A stretch of 64,000 nucleotides of DNA, taken from positions 1-64,000 of the forward strand of contig JAIELG010000010.1 of the NCBI GenBank assembly GCA_019753155.1. The letters are read 5' to 3'. The stretch is from Burkholderiales bacterium. Lineage in GTDB: Bacteria; Pseudomonadota; Gammaproteobacteria; Burkholderiales; JABEVD01. A program made the position numbers and the translations under genes. Positions 1-8,908 of this stretch are shown in pieces. The notes beneath the pieces are model-generated. The model was not told the DNA's origin. It saw nothing but the letters and a program-made list of their open reading frames with translations, and searched no databases. Numbering within the stretch: the stretch's first letter is position 1; the number at the start of each line of letters is the position of its first letter.

Positions 1-272
1 CATTGCCATCACTCCGTTTCACAATGCCGCTATTTTACCAAATCAAGTGAATGCCCGGGTTTTTCAGCAGCCTGCTAGAGGTCAAAACCACCAAAACACG
101 CAAAAAGCCAACCTAACATGACTGGTGGCATTCTCGGTTTTTCAAAACTTAACAGGCAGTGAATAATTGCATATTCCCTAAGTAATTCAGGAAAAGTAGC
201 TTAATTTTTGAGCATTTCTCAGCAAAAATAGTTTTGCAAGAAGCTCTATATTACTTTTCAATAGTTCTATTC
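1..272. other. AT-rich non-coding stretch at window edge
   Basis: No convincing gene lies here. It follows the stop codon of the leftward wzt-like gene and is AT-rich. At the extreme left, ATG codons on the minus strand (position 9 and position 3) are preceded by a GGAG-like sequence near positions 11-17, so a further leftward gene may begin at the window edge. No clear terminator hairpin with a T-run was found. Confidence 0.4.
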
Positions 273-1592
273 TCAAGCCAGCTGCAACAATTCAATTGAA
301 TAGTCAAGCCGCATCTGTCCAAGCACACTAACCGGTGTGTCACAATACAAGTGAATCAGATTGGTGTACTCCTTCACAGGAAATATCTGATCTTGAGTGC
401 CAATGGCCAAGCTCGGAGTAATGAAGTAATGCCCTGATGCAAGTTTCATAGGCGATACTTTGCAGCGAATTACGCACTCCGTATTGCTTTCAAGATTAAA
501 CTGCAGGACATCTTCCTCAAGCATAGAGCTTGCGAAGTTGGTTATTACCCAACCCTGGCTATTTTCAAATCTAAACCCAACCAGCATCTTGGGGAGAACT
601 CCATGCTCTCTGCATATCCTTAATACGGCATCTGAGTCCCATTGGCAGACCATCTCAATTTCAATGTAGTCGTCCCAGCAGAAGATATTCGGCTCCCGAA
701 TTCCACCAACGCGCAAACGGCTAATCCAGGCGGCACCATACCCCCACTGAGTATCGGCGGCATTCATATCAACATCAAGCCAATATTTATCACCCGAATC
801 GGTATCATTTAAATGAAGCGAAGGCACGGCAAGCTCTTTTTGGTTCTCCGATTTTTCCCCTTTAGGGAACATGATTTGGTAATAACGGTTTGCAACCTCG
901 TCAGGCTCGCCTATCGCCACCATCTTTCCATCGTTAATCAAGATAAGTCTGTTGCAAAAGGACTTAACCGTGAAAATATCATGGCTGACAAAAAGAATTG
1001 TTTTGCCTCTTTCCTTAAAATTGCGCATGAAATCTACACATTTTTTTTGAAAACGTACATCACCAACCGCCAGAGCCTCGTCAATAATCAGAATATCAGG
1101 ATCGACATGTACTGAGGCGGCAAATGCCAGACGAACAAACATTCCACTTGAGTAAATTTTGACCGGTTGATCAATGAAGTCCCCAATATCTGCAAAGTTA
1201 ATGATCTCAGAGATACGTTCATTCATTTGTGCTTTGGTGCACCCCATCAAGGCACCGTTAAAATAGATATTTTCGCACCCGGTAAGTTCCGGGTTAAAGC
1301 CTGCGCCCAGTTCGAGCAAGGATGCCACTTTCCCCGACACTTGAACATTGCCCGCAGTCGGCGAAAGAACCCCTGAAAGAATTTTCAACAGCGTCGATTT
1401 GCCTGAGCCATTGCGTCCTATGATGCCGATGCTCTCACCCTCTTCGACCGTGAAACTAATGTCAGACAGCGCGTGAAAATCATTATGCCGAGGCTTGCCA
1501 AACGGCAGGAATAAATCCAGGCCGCGATCTGTTTTTGAGTTGTACAACTTATAAGACTTTGACAACCCCTGAACGGAAATAACTTTATTCAT
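273..1592 (-). CDS. wzt: Polysaccharide ABC exporter ATPase with C-terminal extension (Wzt-like)
   Basis: This is the ATP-binding subunit of an ABC-2 polysaccharide exporter that would drive O-antigen or capsule export across the inner membrane. The 439 residues hold a nucleotide-binding domain (about 1-240) with Walker A GRNGSGKS (59-66), signature YSSGM (147-151) and Walker B ILIIDE (167-172), followed by about 180 extra residues. In the O9a/O12 Wzt family such a C-terminal domain is a carbohydrate-binding module that recognises the modified end of the chain. It lies 9 bases after the permease gene and shares its strand, so they form one operon. The neighbouring methyltransferase fits a system with a capped glycan. 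Substrate specificity is inferred. Confidence 0.88.
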   Translation of the reverse strand: MNKVISVQGLSKSYKLYNSKTDRGLDLFLPFGKPRHNDFHALSDISFTVEEGESIGIIGRNGSGKSTLLKILSGVLSPTAGNVQVSGKVASLLELGAGFNPELTGCENIYFNGALMGCTKAQMNERISEIINFADIGDFIDQPVKIYSSGMFVRLAFAASVHVDPDILIIDEALAVGDVRFQKKCVDFMRNFKERGKTILFVSHDIFTVKSFCNRLILINDGKMVAIGEPDEVANRYYQIMFPKGEKSENQKELAVPSLHLNDTDSGDKYWLDVDMNAADTQWGYGAAWISRLRVGGIREPNIFCWDDYIEIEMVCQWDSDAVLRICREHGVLPKMLVGFRFENSQGWVITNFASSMLEEDVLQFNLESNTECVIRCKVSPMKLASGHYFITPSLAIGTQDQIFPVKEYTNLIHLYCDTPVSVLGQMRLDYSIELLQLA

Positions 1593-1601
1593 CTTATCAA
1601 A

Positions 1602-2387
1602 TCACAGCACGTCAGCAAAATCGCGCTTTGTGCGCCTAAATAAAAAAAATCCTATGCCCAGAAGAACCATGGTTACCGACCAAAAATATATGGTCTGATT
1701 TGGCTTCTCGAAAAACCAGGTATTGAAAAGTAAAGAATCACGATAGCCCTGAACAATATAGCCGACTGGATTCAAATAGACCAAAGGCGCAAATCGTTCG
1801 GGCAATATTTTCGCATCCCAAAGAACTGGGGTTCCCCACAAGCCAATTTGCATGAGAATAGTGATTACTCCCTGAAAGTCGCGAAAAAACACCTGAATTA
1901 CAGTGCTAATCATTGAAATCGCCAGGACAAACATAATGAGTGCAAAGAGGTAATAGGGAATTTGCATCCAAAAAATGGTCGGATAATGTCCTACGTAGAT
2001 ATATAAACCAAACAATAGTACCAGACTCACCACATGCACATACAACGATGAGCACACCTTAACAACGGGCAAAAGTTCGGTAGCGAACTGTATTTTTTTG
2101 ACGAGAAAGCTGTATTCGATGACTGAATTAGACCCGGAAATGATGCCATCGCTAATGTAAAACCAAACTATCAATCCAGTAATTAACCAGAGATCAAACC
2201 TGACACCATTAACCGGTCCTGAACGAAACCCAATATCAAAAACGAAGAGCAAAACGCCTATCGTTGCCAAAGGAGCCGCAAATGCCCAAAATACTCCGAA
2301 GTACGTTCCCAGGTATCTACGTTGAAAGTCAGACCGCACCAAGCTTGATAGTATTGTCAACTGCCTAAAATCTCTGAAGAAACGCAT
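1602..2387 (-). CDS. wzm: Polysaccharide ABC exporter permease (Wzm-like)
   Basis: This is a 261-residue ABC-2 type membrane protein, the permease partner of the ATPase encoded just downstream. Several hydrophobic segments are visible (about 30-52, 68-85, 110-130, 140-165, 175-190 and 235-252), preceded by the amphipathic N-terminus (LTILSSLVRSDFQRRYLG) typical of Wzm/KpsM/TagG proteins. Length matches the family. The gene starts 3 bases before the stop of the methyltransferase gene region, so methyltransferase, permease and ATPase are probably one transcript. Two Wzm would pair with two Wzt. Base composition is AT-rich, unlike the rml genes to the right. Confidence 0.9.
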   Translation of the reverse strand: MRFFRDFRQLTILSSLVRSDFQRRYLGTYFGVFWAFAAPLATIGVLLFVFDIGFRSGPVNGVRFDLWLITGLIVWFYISDGIISGSNSVIEYSFLVKKIQFATELLPVVKVCSSLYVHVVSLVLLFGLYIYVGHYPTIFWMQIPYYLFALIMFVLAISMISTVIQVFFRDFQGVITILMQIGLWGTPVLWDAKILPERFAPLVYLNPVGYIVQGYRDSLLFNTWFFEKPNQTIYFWSVTMVLLGIGFFLFRRTKRDFADVL

Positions 2388-2390
2388 GAA

Positions 2391-4334
2391 TTAATGCTTC
2401 CCGAAATGAATAAAGGAATTGATCATAACTTTTGCTTTTCGCATGAGTCGAATCATAGGAAACGTCTGATACCTATTCAGGCTCGTTGTTAGAATTTGAT
2501 TCTGCTTCCGCTGTTGATCTAGCTCCAAGTCGAGTTGTTCGTTCTGTTTCCGCTGTTGATCTAGCTCCAAGTCGAGTTGTTCGTTCTGCTTCCGCTGTTG
2601 ATCTAGCTCCAAGTCGAGTTGTTCGTTCTGCTTCCGCTGTTGATCAAGTTCGTTAGTTAACGACCGTTTAGCCTTAGTGGCTGCTTCAAGCTTGGCTTTG
2701 ATAGCTTCAGATTCAAGTATTTTCATCTCCATTACTATGTTGCTTGCTGGCAATGAATGTAAATTACTGATTGATTTTATTTGGGAGTTAACAAATTCAG
2801 CACCGATAAAACAGCGACCATCAGGCTCGACGTGTAGCAATTCTGCCCCATAACCCAACGGGATAATTGTCTTAAGTGTGGCAACAGCACAAAAAATAGA
2901 ATGTAGCTCAATGAGCAACACTGGATGATGCTGTATTAGTGTTTGTGTAGCTCCAGCCAGTGCTAAATGCTCAGCCCCTTCAATATCTATTTTCAAACAA
3001 GCTGGAATTAAATTTGTATATTGAACAAATTCATCCAGCGTCACCATGCTCACATCTACATCGGTGAAACCCAACTGAGACAATTGCTGTTCAGACAAAG
3101 TTGTATGAGCTCCTTCAATATAAGAGGCGCTGCTTAAGCCATCATCAACATTGCTGTGAACCTTAAACTTAGTATTTCCCCTTTCATTCGACAGGGCAAA
3201 CGGATAAATCTTGATACGATCACTCAACTCAGGATTTTCAGATATATTTAGTGCAAGCCTGTCAGCATTAAAGGGGTTGGGTTCAAACGAACAAACCATT
3301 CCTTCAGCAGTAACTTGACGTGCGAACTGCATACTATTAACACCGACAAAGGCCCCAAGATCAAAAATTATCTTTCCAGCAAGCTGATATTTAGACATGA
3401 AATTTATCAGAAATTGGTCATAATTCCCGTTATCGTAATATTCAAGATATGTTGGCACAACATATAAGGAAATCCCCGCCAGATTCCCATTTTTGAAACG
3501 ATGGAGTTCAACTTCCTTATTTAATTTATAAGCAATTTCAAATTTTTCTGGTAACCAACTTCCTCTTAATGGGATGCCTCGCGCGCGTGCATCATCCCAG
3601 CGCTTCCGGTAACTGTACTTACCATGCCAGATACTCTCATCACCTTTAGGCATTCCGAAGTAATGTCCACGAGAAATAGGTAAATATCCGAGATTACTGA
3701 AAAAATGGCGGAGACTATTCAGTGTATAACGGTTGCAATGCATACCCTTTGTTTCTTCAATGAAATCAGAGGAGTCCATGCATTTTTCATTGAGCCCTTC
3801 AGTGATCACATCATTATCAAATGGAAAGTCAGGTGTGTTAACGACTATAACAGCATTCACCGAAAGAATAGGTCGTAAGATTTTTAGAACTTCAATTAGC
3901 TCCGCCCTGGGAATATGCTCGACAAAGTCGAGCATCACCAATACATCAATCGACGGGCCCTTTGCTTCATTCGTTTCAGCCGAAAATTTGCGCGCAAACT
4001 CTATTGCATCTGAGCATATAATTTTAGGTCCGACGATAGCAAATTTCTCAAGGAACCCTTTGGCGATACTGCAAGCAGCTTCGGAGAAATCAACGCCTGT
4101 ATAATTGCTAGCACCTTGCTCCCAGATATACTTAATCGTTTCACCTCGACCAAATCCAAACTCAAGTACATTGGCGCCCGAAAAGTTGATACGACTCAGG
4201 ATTTCCAGATCATGTTCGCGCAGATCGCCCTTTATGAAAGATTCAATTCCTTCAACGCCATAGGGCAAGATATTTCCATCAAGGTCTTTACGTAAAAAAT
4301 ACGCTTCATTATATTTATCTACCAAATAACCCAA
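2391..4334 (-). CDS. Two-domain methyltransferase with C-terminal tandem-repeat coiled coil
   Basis: The 647-residue protein joins a class I SAM methyltransferase (about 30-225; glycine motif LEFGFGRGE at 57-65), an FkbM-type methyltransferase (about 315-480; FDLGAFVG at 324-331, KIDIEGAE at 448-455) and a coiled coil (about 535-620) made partly of identical 14-residue units QQRKQNEQLDLELD. The last 25 residues are basic and amphipathic and could touch the membrane. The start chosen is TTG at 4334, 7 bases after AGGAG; no in-frame ATG lies nearby. By analogy with E. coli WbdD, whose coiled coil acts as a ruler that sets O-antigen length and whose cap is read by Wzt, this may terminate the glycan. 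That role is inference; the methyltransferase folds are well supported. Confidence 0.8.
   Translation of the reverse strand: MGYLVDKYNEAYFLRKDLDGNILPYGVEGIESFIKGDLREHDLEILSRINFSGANVLEFGFGRGETIKYIWEQGASNYTGVDFSEAACSIAKGFLEKFAIVGPKIICSDAIEFARKFSAETNEAKGPSIDVLVMLDFVEHIPRAELIEVLKILRPILSVNAVIVVNTPDFPFDNDVITEGLNEKCMDSSDFIEETKGMHCNRYTLNSLRHFFSNLGYLPISRGHYFGMPKGDESIWHGKYSYRKRWDDARARGIPLRGSWLPEKFEIAYKLNKEVELHRFKNGNLAGISLYVVPTYLEYYDNGNYDQFLINFMSKYQLAGKIIFDLGAFVGVNSMQFARQVTAEGMVCSFEPNPFNADRLALNISENPELSDRIKIYPFALSNERGNTKFKVHSNVDDGLSSASYIEGAHTTLSEQQLSQLGFTDVDVSMVTLDEFVQYTNLIPACLKIDIEGAEHLALAGATQTLIQHHPVLLIELHSIFCAVATLKTIIPLGYGAELLHVEPDGRCFIGAEFVNSQIKSISNLHSLPASNIVMEMKILESEAIKAKLEAATKAKRSLTNELDQQRKQNEQLDLELDQQRKQNEQLDLELDQQRKQNEQLDLELDQQRKQNQILTTSLNRYQTFPMIRLMRKAKVMINSFIHFGKH
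2500..2647. repeat. 42-bp tandem repeat, three full copies plus a partial one
   Basis: A 42-bp unit beginning gctccaagtcgagttgttcg occurs at 2522-2563, 2564-2605 and 2606-2647 with a single c/t difference, and a partial unit precedes it at 2500-2521. It stays in frame and encodes 14 residues (two heptads) of the methyltransferase coiled coil. Near-identity at DNA level points to recent expansion by slippage or recombination, so copy number may vary between strains. Confidence 0.95.
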
Positions 4335-4507: not shown

Positions 4508-5337
4508 TCACGCTGCCTGTTCAACCGTCGGCAGCATCACGTTATAAATCTCATCCGGCGTTTTTTTGCCCAGACTGGAATGCGGCCTCAGCCTGTTGTA
4601 CCAAACCACATACTGCATGATTGAAGCCCTTGCCTGGCTCACCGAATCGTAAGCATACAGGTACACCCGTTCATATTTTACTGACCGCCACAAGCGTTCA
4701 ACAAAGATGTTGTCCCGCCAGGCGCCTCTTCCGTCCATGCTGATCTTGCAGCCACGATCCTTGACCGTCTGCACGAACTCATGCGCAGTGAACTGGCTAC
4801 CCTGATCTGTGTTCACGATCTCAGGCACGCCATGTCGGTTGAAGGCTTCCTGCAATACATCAACCGCATGACAGGCTTCCAGCGTAAGGCCACCTTGGCC
4901 GCCATGATCCTGCGGCTGAACCAGTCTACCACGGCAGTCAAATACACAAAGCCCTTGGCCATCGGAATATACGTCGTATCCAATGCCCAGACCTGATTGG
5001 ATCTGTCGATCTTCAGGTTGCGCAACAGATACGGATATACCGTATGCCCCGGATGTTTCTTGCTAGTGCCCGGCTTTCGGTACAGCGCTTCAATTCCCAT
5101 GCGCTTCATCAGCTTGCCGACATGCTTACGACCCACTTCATAGCCTTGCCGGTTCAACTGATCGCGCAACATCCTGGCTCCCATGAACGGATGCTCCAGA
5201 TGCAGCCTGTCCATCTGTTTCATCAGCGTCAGGTCCGTCTCGTTTACCGGCCTGGGAACGTAATACACGCTGCCCCTGCTGATTCCTGCCAATCTGGCCT
5301 GACGGCTGAGCGGCAATCTGTGGGTTCGATCTATCAT
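4508..5337 (-). pseudogene. IS3-family transposase orfB, disrupted by a one-base deletion
   Basis: The N-terminal part (from ATG 5337) carries the HTH_21 region (HPFMGARMLRDQLNRQGYEVGR) split here as HPFMGARMLRDQ then LNRQGYEVGR, and the first catalytic Asp in WALDTTYIP. After AKVAL the reading frame changes: the normal continuation LEACHAVDVLQEAFNRHGVP is in another frame, so one base is missing near 4885. The distal part has the second Asp (NTDQGSQFT) and the catalytic Glu region (FVERLWRSVKYE). The break lies inside the DDE domain, far from the orfA/orfB junction, so it is not the programmed frameshift of the family and the transposase is probably inactive. Confidence 0.85.
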
Positions 5338-5690
5338 CGCTTTGCGCTCAGCAACCCCACCCTGTTGAGCGCGCTTTCTAAAAAATCGTTTTCCAGCGTC
5401 AACTGCCCGATCTTTGCATGCAGCGTTTTCAGATCAATTGGCGTTTCACCAGAACCCTTCTTGTCGAACACATTCACGGCACCTGCGGCAAGTTGCCGCT
5501 TCCATTCCGTTATCTGGTTCGGATGCACCTCGTACTGCTGAGCCAATTCCGCCAGCGTCTTGTCACCCGATAGCGCCGCCAAGGCTACCTTCGCCTTGAA
5601 TGTCGACGAATGCGTACGCCTCGTTCTTTTTGCCATTTCCTGCCCCATTTCTATGCCCAACATGGGCATCAAAGGTAGCAGGTTTTCCAC
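5334..5690 (-). CDS. IS3-family transposase orfA (HTH)
   Basis: This 118-residue protein has the IS3 OrfA/HTH_8 pattern: KRTRRTHSSTFKAKVALAAL, then LAELAQQYEVHPNQITEWKR (about 46-65), then a leucine-rich helical tail (LHAKIGQLTLENDFLESAL). Its stop overlaps the orfB start as ATGA. OrfA binds the element ends; a full transposase normally needs the OrfAB fusion, which cannot form intact because orfB is broken. The real start may be an internal ATG (MLGIEMGQEMAKRTRR), since the family usually begins close to the KRTRR stretch. Confidence 0.85.
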   Translation of the reverse strand: MENLLPLMPMLGIEMGQEMAKRTRRTHSSTFKAKVALAALSGDKTLAELAQQYEVHPNQITEWKRQLAAGAVNVFDKKGSGETPIDLKTLHAKIGQLTLENDFLESALNRVGLLSAKR

Positions 5691-5724: not shown

Positions 5725-5897
5725 GACAGCTCTCCACCATCGAAATTCAGTTCGATCTTGCGGCGTGAAAACCCGGGAAAGATGTTTTTAGGTGCGGTAC
5801 AATTTGGCATCGGCGGAACGCTCATAAATACGGTCGGGAAACCATATTTTATGCGGGTTTTACCCTTCCGCCGACTCTCTATCGTGAAATTTTCGGG
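5725..5897. other. Non-coding gap between IS and epimerase gene
   Basis: No gene or clear signal is visible in these 173 bases. They separate the right end of the IS from the stop of the epimerase gene. They would be transcribed leftward with the polysaccharide genes if no terminator intervenes; no hairpin followed by a T-run is evident on the minus strand. Confidence 0.5.
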
Positions 5898-7031
5898 TTA
5901 GGCTTTATTTTTTGACCAAACAACATTATTTACAAAATTCGTATAACTCAAGACAACGCGCAGAATTTTCTGTGATACCAAGCCCCCTTCATAATCCGGA
6001 ACGATTCTGAATTGTCTGTCTGTCTTGTTGTGCTGCTGGGTTACGATGCGAACCGCATCGAGAACCCTTTCTGCCTTGAGGCCACTCATGATGAGAACGC
6101 CGGAGTCCATGCCTTCCGGCCGTTCGTGTGCGTTACGAATGGTCACTGCCGGCAAGTTAAGCAATGAAGCCTCTTCGGTAATCGTGCCGCTGTCGGATAA
6201 AACACAAAACGCTTCCATTTGTAGCTTGACATAATCGAAGAACCCAAACGGTTTGAGAAACTGTATTCTGGAATCCAGTCCATCCACCCCCAGCTTTTCC
6301 AACCGCTGCCTGGTGCGCGGATGTGTGGATACGATAACTGGCACTTCATAATGCTTGACCAGTGCTTGCAGTGTATCCAACAGGTCTTGCAGGTTATCGG
6401 GCGAGTCGACGTTTTCTTCCCGGTGCGCGCTCAACAGGAAGTAACGTTGAGACGGTAGGTTGAGGCGGGCAAGCACATCCGATGTTGTAATTTTCGGCAT
6501 GTAACACTCCAGCACTTCCTGCATGTGCGAACCGGTTTTGATAATTCTGTCCGCGTGGATGCCCTCCGCGAGCAAATAGCGCCTAGCGTGTTCGGTGAGC
6601 ACCAGGTTGACGTCGCTCAAGTGATCCAGCACTTTACGGTTCAGTTCTTCGGGCACTCGCTGATCGAAGCAGCGGTTGCCCGCTTCCATGTGGAATACCG
6701 GAATTTTGCGGCGTTTGGCTGAAATAACAGAAAGGCAGGAGTTGGTGTCGCCATAGAGTAGAAGAGCATCGGGTTGCTCTTTCTCCAGCACCTCATCGGC
6801 TTTTTCGATAATACGCGCGATGGTCTGAGCGGCATTCACGCCTACCGCGCCCAGAAAATAGTCCGGTTTACGGATGTCAAGGTCGTCGAAGAAAACCTGA
6901 TTCAGTTCGTAATCGAAGTTTTGGCCGGTATGAACCAAGACATGCTTGGTATGTTGATCAAATTCGGCAATGACCCGCGACATTTTTATAAGTTCCGGTC
7001 GCGTGCCAACGATAGTCATGACCTTAAGCAT
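5898..7031 (-). CDS. UDP-N-acetylglucosamine/6-deoxyhexosamine 2-epimerase (WecB/FnlC family)
   Basis: This is a 377-residue non-hydrolysing UDP-sugar 2-epimerase. Visible family motifs are GTRPE (9-13), HTGQN (34-38), GDTNS (94-98), HMEAGNR (114-120) with VPEELNR (126-132), STHPRTR near 255-262, and SDSGTITEEA near 290-299. In isolation this could be WecB (UDP-GlcNAc to UDP-ManNAc). Its neighbours, a 5-inverting 4,6-dehydratase and an SDR reductase, instead match the WbjBCD/FnlABC and WbvB-R-D routes, where the 2-epimerase (WbjD/FnlC/WbvD) works last. The start overlaps the previous gene's stop by 8 bases, which supports translational coupling. Substrate is inferred from context. Confidence 0.85.
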   Translation of the reverse strand: MLKVMTIVGTRPELIKMSRVIAEFDQHTKHVLVHTGQNFDYELNQVFFDDLDIRKPDYFLGAVGVNAAQTIARIIEKADEVLEKEQPDALLLYGDTNSCLSVISAKRRKIPVFHMEAGNRCFDQRVPEELNRKVLDHLSDVNLVLTEHARRYLLAEGIHADRIIKTGSHMQEVLECYMPKITTSDVLARLNLPSQRYFLLSAHREENVDSPDNLQDLLDTLQALVKHYEVPVIVSTHPRTRQRLEKLGVDGLDSRIQFLKPFGFFDYVKLQMEAFCVLSDSGTITEEASLLNLPAVTIRNAHERPEGMDSGVLIMSGLKAERVLDAVRIVTQQHNKTDRQFRIVPDYEGGLVSQKILRVVLSYTNFVNNVVWSKNKA

Positions 7032-8034
7032 TCAGCTGTGCCTGAATGAAATCGAGATTCAGCAACAATTCTTTTACTCCATCGGTTTGAAGTTGTTGGG
7101 TATTATGTGAGGTGTAGTCGGCAATTGCGGAAAGTTTCAGGTCGCCTTCCACATAAAATTGGGCGTAGTTCAAGCCGCGGTTGTCAGCGGGAATGCGGAA
7201 ATAGCGTCCTTCATCTTCCGCTTTTGCCATTTCTTCTCGCGATATGAGCGACTCGTACAACTTTTCTCCGTGCCGCGTCCCGATTACTCGAATTGGTACG
7301 TCTGCATCAAACAATTCCCTCAACGCTTGAGCCAATACCCCTACCGTCGACGCAGGTGCTTTCTGCACGAAAATATCTCCCTGTTGGCCATGTTCAAACG
7401 CGTAGGTAACCAAATCGACAGAGTCTTCCAGCGACATGAGAAAGCGGGTCATGTTTGGGTCAGTAACGGTTAGCGCTTTGCCTTCCTTTAGCTGGCTGAC
7501 AAACAGGGGAATGACTGACCCACGCGAAGCCATCACATTCCCATAACGCGTCGCGCACAGTATTGTTTCGCCTTTTGATTGCATTCTGGCCTTGGCAACC
7601 ATGAGTTTTTCCATCATTGCCTTCGAGATACCCATTGCGTTGATCGGATACACCGCCTTGTCGGTACTCAATACAACGACACGCTCCACGTTTCTTGCTA
7701 TTGCGGCGTTCATTGTGTTTTCAGTCCCCATAATGTTTGTTTTCACCGCTTCCATAGGATAGAATTCACACGAGGGAACCTGTTTCAATGCGGCAGCGTG
7801 AAAAACGTAATGCACACCCTTCATGGCTTCGTAAATACTGTCGTAATTTCGCACATCGCCGATATAAAACTTGAGTTTCGGATGATTAAAGGCGATTCGC
7901 ATGTCTTCCTGCTTTTTTTCATCGCGACTAAAAATCCGAATTTCCTTTATTTCGGTTTCCAAGAAACGTTTAAGAACAGCATTGCCAAACGAACCGGTTC
8001 CCCCCGTAATTAATAGTATCTTATTTGCAAACAC
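7024..8034 (-). CDS. UDP-GlcNAc 4,6-dehydratase (5-inverting), FnlA/WbjB/CapE family
   Basis: It converts UDP-GlcNAc to UDP-2-acetamido-2,6-dideoxy-L-hexos-4-uloses, the first step to L-FucNAc, L-RhaNAc or L-QuiNAc. The NAD motif GGTGSFG lies at residues 11-17, and STDKAVYPINAMGISKAMME shows Met in place of the usual SDR Tyr (MGISK rather than YxxxK), a hallmark of the CapE/WbjB class. I prefer the GTG start at 8034: a very strong GGGGGGGAG precedes it, and it aligns with family N-termini. An upstream in-frame ATG at 8067 would add 11 residues and overlap the preceding gene. It belongs to one operon with the two flanking sugar genes. Confidence 0.88.
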   Translation of the reverse strand: MFANKILLITGGTGSFGNAVLKRFLETEIKEIRIFSRDEKKQEDMRIAFNHPKLKFYIGDVRNYDSIYEAMKGVHYVFHAAALKQVPSCEFYPMEAVKTNIMGTENTMNAAIARNVERVVVLSTDKAVYPINAMGISKAMMEKLMVAKARMQSKGETILCATRYGNVMASRGSVIPLFVSQLKEGKALTVTDPNMTRFLMSLEDSVDLVTYAFEHGQQGDIFVQKAPASTVGVLAQALRELFDADVPIRVIGTRHGEKLYESLISREEMAKAEDEGRYFRIPADNRGLNYAQFYVEGDLKLSAIADYTSHNTQQLQTDGVKELLLNLDFIQAQLNA

Positions 8035-8053
8035 TCTCTCCCCCCCTTGCGAG

Positions 8054-8908
8054 TTACTTAAATTCATGCATGCGTTGAATCAAGGCAGGCCATTCTGGAG
8101 CTTCATATCCGGTTGCGTCCTTAAAGCGATCTGCGTTCAGCGAGCGATCAATGATCGGGTTCTCTGATGGGATAATTTCGATGTTTTTGCCATATGCTTT
8201 TGCCACCAGCTTCAGCAAATCAAATTTATTGATGGGGTTGGACGCAACGTGGTAGATGCCATGAAGTTCTTTGCGCGGCAGCACCAAATCCCGAACAACT
8301 GTAGCTAATTCAACCGTTGGCAAGCCAGAGAAAACGGCGCGGGTAAAGCCATTTACCACGCCCTGTTGATCAAGGAACCAGTTTACCAAACTTCTTTGCC
8401 CTGATAATTCAATGCCAATGATGGATGTGCGAAGTGTAATCGCATGTGGATAATCAACCTCCCCCAGCAGCTTGGAGCGACCGTAGAGGTCGCTTGCATC
8501 GGGGAAGTCTGTTTCTAAATAATTGCCTTTTGATCCGGAGAATACGCAGTCTGTACTAATATGCACAAGGCGTGCTGCTGTAGCCTGGCAAAGCGTTGCG
8601 AGGCGATGTGGCAAAAGCGTGTTGATCGGAATTACTCGTAAAGGGTCATTTGCGTCCGCCAATTGCTTTACCAAACCAACGCAATTCACGACAACATCAG
8701 GGTGTATGGCAGCAAATGCCTTAACCAACGAGTCGTGGTTTTCGACATCCACGCCGACAATGATTTGGTTAGCTAACGCTTCTGCAAAGTGAAGTCGAGC
8801 ACTGCCACTACGTGCAGAACCGTAAACAGTTAAGCTTTTGTCTGCCGACAGGACGCGGAACATGGCATTTCCAAGCATTCCTGTCACACCAATAACAAAT
8901 ATTCTCAA
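8054..8908 (-). CDS. RmlD-like SDR reductase for a UDP-6-deoxy-L-hexosamine
   Basis: This 284-residue extended SDR has the Rossmann motif GVTGMLG (7-13), STD (118-120) and catalytic YGRSK (Tyr142, Lys146), as in dTDP-4-dehydrorhamnose reductases. A complete rmlD lies nearby, so this copy probably acts on the UDP-4-keto-6-deoxy-L-sugar from its dehydratase neighbour. FnlB/WbjC/CapF enzymes of the L-FucNAc route are about 370 residues with a C-terminal cupin epimerase domain; this protein ends after the SDR and lacks it. That favours a simple 4-reductase as in the WbvR (L-RhaNAc/L-QuiNAc) route, though this is inferred from domain content. It is the first gene of the AT-rich block; 87 bases separate it from rmlD. 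Confidence 0.75.
   Translation of the reverse strand: MRIFVIGVTGMLGNAMFRVLSADKSLTVYGSARSGSARLHFAEALANQIIVGVDVENHDSLVKAFAAIHPDVVVNCVGLVKQLADANDPLRVIPINTLLPHRLATLCQATAARLVHISTDCVFSGSKGNYLETDFPDASDLYGRSKLLGEVDYPHAITLRTSIIGIELSGQRSLVNWFLDQQGVVNGFTRAVFSGLPTVELATVVRDLVLPRKELHGIYHVASNPINKFDLLKLVAKAYGKNIEIIPSENPIIDRSLNADRFKDATGYEAPEWPALIQRMHEFK

Follow-up and report, generated by a model that had tools for sequence, protein, structure and literature searches.

The gene at positions 2391 to 4334 of the window (the whole stretch of DNA that was analysed, 64,000 nucleotides) lies beside wzm and wzt and raises the question of whether a protein with two methyltransferase domains and a coiled coil ends O-polysaccharide chains, and whether its coiled coil sets their length. 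Experiments have established coiled-coil rulers of O antigens in few systems, most of them from enteric bacteria. The gene probably encodes a chain terminator of the known coiled-coil class for an O-polysaccharide exported by an ABC transporter, with two methyltransferases instead of the methyltransferase and kinase of WbdD. This reading is based on domain content, predicted structure, the operon, the fold of Wzt, conservation of the modules beside wzm and wzt, the way terminator form goes with Wzt clade, and the identical stalk length of the two closest members; from these, we infer what the enzyme domains do and on which acceptor sugar, and that the protein recruits the polymerase, oligomerises and controls chain length.

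Genes of the locus and genome context

2391-4334, minus strand: proposed O-antigen chain terminator of 647 amino acids, composed of Methyltransf_23 (MT23), FkbM, coiled coil and basic tail (open reading frame, Pfam/NCBIfam, AlphaFold2)
1602-2387, minus strand: wzm, ABC-2 permease (PF01061, just over the cut-off)
273-1592, minus strand: wzt, ABC ATPase with a C-terminal extension (PF00005; the closest PDB chain is the ATPase of the Aquifex aeolicus O-antigen ABC transporter)
4508-5690, minus strand: degenerate IS3-family element with a frame-broken orfB, between the fnlC-type gene and the terminator gene, absent from the Rhodoferax locus
5898-8908, minus strand: wecB-type epimerase, FnlA-type and FnlB/RmlD-type genes (TIGR00236 over the cut-off; FnlA at 561 bits, under the cut-off of 730)

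The terminator reading frame has a TTG start with AGGAG just before it. wzm begins 3 bp past the terminator gene and wzt follows at 9 bp, a spacing tight enough to suggest one operon for the three genes. On the minus strand, rmlB-rmlA-rmlC-rmlD (about 12.4-9.0 kb) come first, then the FnlB-, FnlA- and wecB-type genes (8.9-5.9 kb), the IS3-family element, the terminator gene, wzm and wzt; the closest relative, from Rhodoferax, has fnlB-fnlA-fnlC-terminator-wzm-wzt in the same order, without the insertion. The wecB-, FnlA- and FnlB-type genes probably supply a UDP-L-FucNAc-like sugar, and the IS3-family element may have cut the operon or given it a promoter. Between this element and the fnlC-type gene, a stretch of about 30 bp (5821-5850) is also found at many contig ends, a sign of a multicopy repeat.

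The G+C content is about 42% at the terminator locus, against 54-59% over the larger part of the rml and dcw region, and neither the other 8 genomes of the window's genus nor the rest of 300 genomes of the order contain the terminator gene. Low G+C content and patchy presence are as expected of a mobile O-antigen locus.

The contig (C8) terminates at window positions 1-77 in an apparent IS copy just 3' of wzt. Contigs C16 and C24 start with the same repeat end, C14 carries it close to its end, and C17 has an internal copy by a transposase (DUF772) fragment. Because the contig breaks off just past wzt, the glycosyltransferases expected after wzt lie out of view: neither a polymerase gene nor glycosyltransferase genes of the cluster are found within the window, and the search of the window's genome for a close homologue of the next Rhodoferax glycosyltransferase gave only weak matches. 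Contig C24 carries the same IS end and polysaccharide genes, but its orientation gives no direct join to the window. Since the contig ends at an IS and the genome yielded no close glycosyltransferase homologue, this strain may have only part of the cluster. Separately, contig C17 of the same genome (G000) has a second wzt-type gene (L072; 25795-26427, plus strand), whose ATPase part is 51% identical to that of the window wzt; the several glycosyltransferase-like and methyltransferase-like reading frames after it suggest a second ABC-exported glycan.

Two methyltransferase domains

3645-4334, minus strand: N-terminal class I methyltransferase domain, residues 1-230 (PF13489; fold match)
2799-3479, minus strand: FkbM methyltransferase domain, residues 286-512 (PF05050, TIGR01444)

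In the N-terminal domain, Pfam Methyltransf_23 matches residues 46-217 with 47.9 bits (cut-off 27), motif I (VLEFGFGRGE) is intact, and the fold matches class I methyltransferases with Z scores of up to 17.2. The second domain belongs to the FkbM family, as its scores exceed the curated cut-offs (Methyltransf_21, PF05050, residues 326-479, 56.8 bits against 22.7; NCBIfam fkbM_fam, TIGR01444, 95.6 bits against 37.7) and its SAM motifs IFDLGAFVG, FEPNP and KIDIEGAE are intact. It also aligns with the FkbM structure 2py6 over 170 residues (Z 15.6). No kinase model matched the protein, and FkbM fills residues 286-512. The AlphaFold2 model, calculated with eight family sequences, consists of two Rossmann-type methyltransferase domains and one long helix. 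As modelled, the putative capping modules thus stand N-terminal to a coiled coil in one protein, which is the long-helix layout of the O-antigen coiled-coil class. The first-pass annotation had described two methyltransferase domains followed by a coiled coil of 14-residue units beside wzm and wzt, and Pfam/NCBIfam, Tandem Repeats Finder (TRF) and AlphaFold2 all agree with this description.

The cap-binding domain of Wzt

309-785, minus strand: cap-binding (CBM) domain of Wzt, approximately residues 270-428 of Wzt (AlphaFold2 with Foldseek/VIA)

The C-terminal domain of Wzt was modelled with four relatives (pLDDT 77.5). The first-pass annotation had pointed to E. coli O9a, where Wzt reads the cap, and its proposal would fall with a C-terminal domain of another than a carbohydrate-binding fold; the model instead resembles the known cap-binding domains of E. 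coli O9a (2r5o, Z 12.8, 146 aligned residues, rmsd 3.4), K. pneumoniae O12 (5hno, Z 12.6) and Aquifex aeolicus (8dky, Z 12.6), and the closest unrelated fold reaches Z 8.9. A sequence profile search with the domain found 2r5o at E 5e-8. Pfam Wzt_C (PF14524) scores 27.8 bits on the window Wzt, under the gathering cut-off of 30.4, and 45.3 bits on the homologous domain of locus L014. Judged by the predicted fold, the Wzt encoded next to the terminator in this wzm/wzt locus therefore carries a cap-binding domain.

The Wzt C-terminal domains of five loci with a coiled-coil terminator form one clade (mutual E of 1e-18 or better). The corresponding domains of three related loci that lack a coiled-coil terminator form another group, and the similarity between the groups is not beyond chance. 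Such matching of terminator form and Wzt clade across distant lineages should be expected of a cap-maker and its cap-reader; whole-operon inheritance would give the same pairing.

In the proposed mechanism, the coiled coil would set a constant distance between the two methyltransferase domains and a polymerase on the membrane side. The growing non-reducing end would then meet the methyltransferases, one or two O-methyl groups would be placed on the terminal sugar, and elongation would end. The adjacent cap-binding domain of Wzt would recognise the methylated end and let the chain into export.

The stalk: length and sequence

2403-2747, minus strand: continuous predicted helix, residues 530-644 (about 115 residues), forming coiled-coil stalk and tail (AlphaFold2)
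2484-2651, minus strand: four 14-residue units, residues 562-617, with the unit ELDQQRKQNEQLDL (42-bp tandem repeat by TRF)
2394-2477, minus strand: basic amphipathic C-terminal tail, residues 620-647, RYQTFPMIRLMRKAKVMINSFIHFGKH (hydrophobic moment, charge)

The AlphaFold2 model with this helix has a mean pLDDT of 81 (mostly 73-86 over the repeats), and the a/d positions of the repeats follow the pattern Leu-Gln-Asn-Leu. In a hydropathy test, a 3.5-residue periodicity was weak in the window protein (P 0.07), strong for the Geobacter relative alone (P 2e-4) and absent in two relatives. From residue 530 to the tail motif at residue 625, the helix spans 96 residues, or about 14 nm at 0.15 nm per residue, of which the short array of 3.5 copies contributes about 8 nm. 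The tail, with a hydrophobic moment of 0.47 and a net charge of +5 over 18 residues, could possibly contact the membrane or the polymerase; a basic amphipathic tail is present in the window protein and most related proteins, and its motif is common to the window and Rhodoferax proteins.

These two proteins are 64% identical overall and 73% identical in both catalytic domains. Beyond FkbM, identity drops to 6% in the loop and is 23% in the helix that leads up to the repeats and 43% across the units themselves. Nevertheless, 113 residues separate the end of FkbM from the tail motif FPxIRL in both, each has four units starting at residues 562, 576, 590 and 604, and the numbering coincides at residues 512, 562 and 625. 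Alignment gaps before the repeats were considered as a length difference and rejected, since they offset each other (8 and 8). Longer stalks, with about 151 residues to the tail, occur in the gammaproteobacterial and Geobacter members (the gammaproteobacterial tail motif was assigned by eye), which have a 42-bp periodicity of their own, built of unrelated units. A stalk that keeps its length while its sequence turns over would look more like a spacer or ruler than like a length switch, equal length being one comparison of two proteins. Collapse of the array in the draft assembly, which consists of 59 contigs, is conceivable; the agreement in unit number with Rhodoferax is a mild argument against this.

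It is possible, albeit doubtful, that the coiled coil is solely a scaffold for oligomerisation and polymerase docking and that chain length is not set by the length of the stalk. The coiled coil of WbdD also drives trimer formation, and kinase activity depends on this coiled coil (PMC3482155); the distance to the tail differs among the members (113 to about 151 residues), and one member, in a bin labelled Patescibacteria (L015), has both methyltransferases and no coiled coil. However, the exactly equal length in window and Rhodoferax proteins at 23-43% stalk identity speaks against a scaffold alone, as does the experimentally supported ruler role of the coiled coil in O9a (PMC5082667). A ruler role of the stalk is thus plausible.

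Relatives of the terminator

Relatives were sought in 84,980 species genomes. Full-length relatives come from Rhodoferax (64% identity), Geobacter (39%), Elusimicrobia (35%) and a gammaproteobacterium (35%), and wzm and wzt adjoin all seven relatives; the same domain order next to wzt, for which the first-pass annotation had proposed a search, is thus found in other phyla. In the Aminicenantes and Acidobacteria forms, the N-terminal domain is shared and FkbM is encoded by the next, separate gene, which indicates that the pairing of the methyltransferases is kept when they are unfused. The FkbM protein of Aminicenantes passes the V. cholerae RfbT model (28.6 against a cut-off of 27.9), and the Rhodoferax homologue matches it weakly (E 2e-4). 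Outside the window's own genome, a whole-protein search of 300 genomes of the order, about 370 of the class and about 400 of the phylum gave no full-length match; plasmid and phage collections gave partial matches only, and viral contigs FkbM domains only. None of the 89 other genomes in the genus to which the Rhodoferax relative belongs has the gene, and neither, in a search for strain variants, has any other genome in the family of the Geobacter relative.

The Patescibacteria-labelled bin encodes wzm, wzt and the MT23-FkbM protein (L015:7001-8671), which is odd for a group thought to be LPS-free or reflects a binning error.

On Azospirillum plasmids, a related protein has a GT2-like segment between the two methyltransferase domains (L003:8001-10286, L004:6001-8286, L005:6001-8289). 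It is encoded away from wzt, and uptake-hydrogenase genes adjoin in two of the three cases.

These plasmid-borne proteins bear on an alternative in which the window protein is no terminator but a methyltransferase acting on a glycolipid or on sugars within the repeat unit, with the coiled coil as a tether to glycosyltransferases. FkbM and MT23 are general O-methyltransferase domains, and the location of the MT23/GT2-like/FkbM relatives away from wzt would suit such a role; however, the latter lack a coiled coil, and among the loci examined the coiled-coil form occurs solely beside wzm and wzt with one clade of Wzt cap domains, which makes this alternative unlikely.

The 42-bp repeat

TRF reports a single array in the 64 kb, at 2500-2645, with a 42-bp unit, 3.5 copies, 98% match and a score of 285. 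Units 1-3 (starting at residues 562, 576 and 590) are exactly ELDQQRKQNEQLDL and differ by 1-3 bases in 42 (93-98% alike in DNA); unit 4, starting at residue 604, opens like the others and then runs into unique sequence. The Rhodoferax units are only 50-62% alike in DNA. The far greater likeness of the window units indicates that they were homogenised recently, by slippage or conversion; judged from the two sequences, the unit count is unchanged relative to Rhodoferax despite this homogenisation.

According to the first-pass annotation, slippage could directly change glycan length in steps of about 2 nm. The size of the step is right, as 14 residues correspond to about 2.1 nm of helix, and a contingency locus in which slippage shifts stalk and glycan length between strains would benefit from a unit of 42 bp, which preserves both reading frame and heptad phase. 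Recent copying of the three units, identical in amino acids, also argues for it, as do the independent 42-bp periods of the gammaproteobacterial and Geobacter stalks. However, the sole close relative, that of Rhodoferax, has the same four units and an identical span, which speaks against the claimed change in length, and the collections yielded no strain series, the gene being absent from the other 8 and the other 89 genomes of the two genera. Slippage as a length switch is therefore not favoured on the sequences at hand and appears quite unlikely. A broader proposal, that the array is a contingency locus tuning O-antigen length by whole units, with 14-residue units arising independently in several tandem-methyltransferase terminators, is likewise quite unlikely.

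The terminator form with two methyltransferases, found in several unrelated lineages and accompanied by one clade of Wzt cap domains, predicts a terminal sugar with more than one methyl group, i.e., a doubly methylated one. Furthermore, the window and Rhodoferax proteins are a natural pair with a common stalk length and different stalk sequences, by which the question of whether length rather than sequence matters becomes testable.

Comparison with known systems

WbdD of E. coli O9a and K. pneumoniae O3 shares with the window protein an N-terminal methyltransferase, a second catalytic domain, a coiled coil and, as a putative one in the window protein, a C-terminal membrane-side region (PMC3482155, PMC11231755); its partner is likewise an ABC transporter with a cap-binding domain on Wzt. 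The second domain, however, is a kinase in WbdD and an FkbM methyltransferase in the window protein, the predicted helix to the tail measures about 14 nm compared with about 20 nm reported for WbdD (PMC5082667), and only the window protein has a stalk encoded in part by a DNA tandem repeat. The first-pass annotation had called the protein WbdD-like. This stands for the layout (domains, coiled coil and basic C-terminal tail in a wzm/wzt operon); for descent, the family profile gave no link. Likewise, its statement that FkbM replaced the kinase describes layout rather than history, since a kinase is missing and WbdD is not among the 60 best PDB matches of the family profile, although absence from this list is no proof. 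On the same two grounds, identification of the protein as WbdD is unsupported.

The terminators of E. coli O101/O162 and O8 resemble the window protein in the expected methyl-only capping and in an N-terminal methyltransferase with a C-terminal coiled coil (for O101, PMC13168486). The O101 protein, with one methyltransferase and a coiled coil, is required for O-methylation (PMC13168486), and the O8 enzyme is a methyltransferase only (PMC3482155). O101/O162-type terminators have one methyltransferase domain, whereas the window protein has two.

WbbB of K. pneumoniae O12 carries a Kdo transferase module. Work on K. pneumoniae concluded that a coiled-coil protein with a terminator module at its distal end marks the assembly strategy, while the catalytic modules vary by system, as in O7 ORF6, O4 ORF7 and O12 WbbB; for E. 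coli O9 and K. pneumoniae O12, the coiled coil has been shown to act as a ruler (PMC11231755). O7 ORF6 has a methyltransferase-kinase with glycosyltransferases and O4 ORF7 has Kdo transferases; the window protein has neither.

The family model of V. cholerae RfbT/WbeT is matched by relatives of the window FkbM domain; unlike the window terminator, RfbT/WbeT is a stand-alone protein without a coiled coil and is not known to act as a length terminator. The methylation of the V. cholerae O1 O-polysaccharide by RfbT falls on the terminal sugar. That RfbT methylates this polysaccharide has been published (PMC9929944). The Wzt cap-binding domain of A. aeolicus has the same fold as that of the window Wzt (Z 12.6), the likeness being one of fold at about 17-18% identity. 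It binds 3-O-methyl-mannose and not mannose (PMC9445017), which indicates that methyl-only caps can be read by such domains. Taken together, the class rule for O-antigen coiled-coil proteins, the O101 terminator, the methyl-only cap read in Aquifex and the matches to the RfbT model favour a tandem-methyltransferase terminator.
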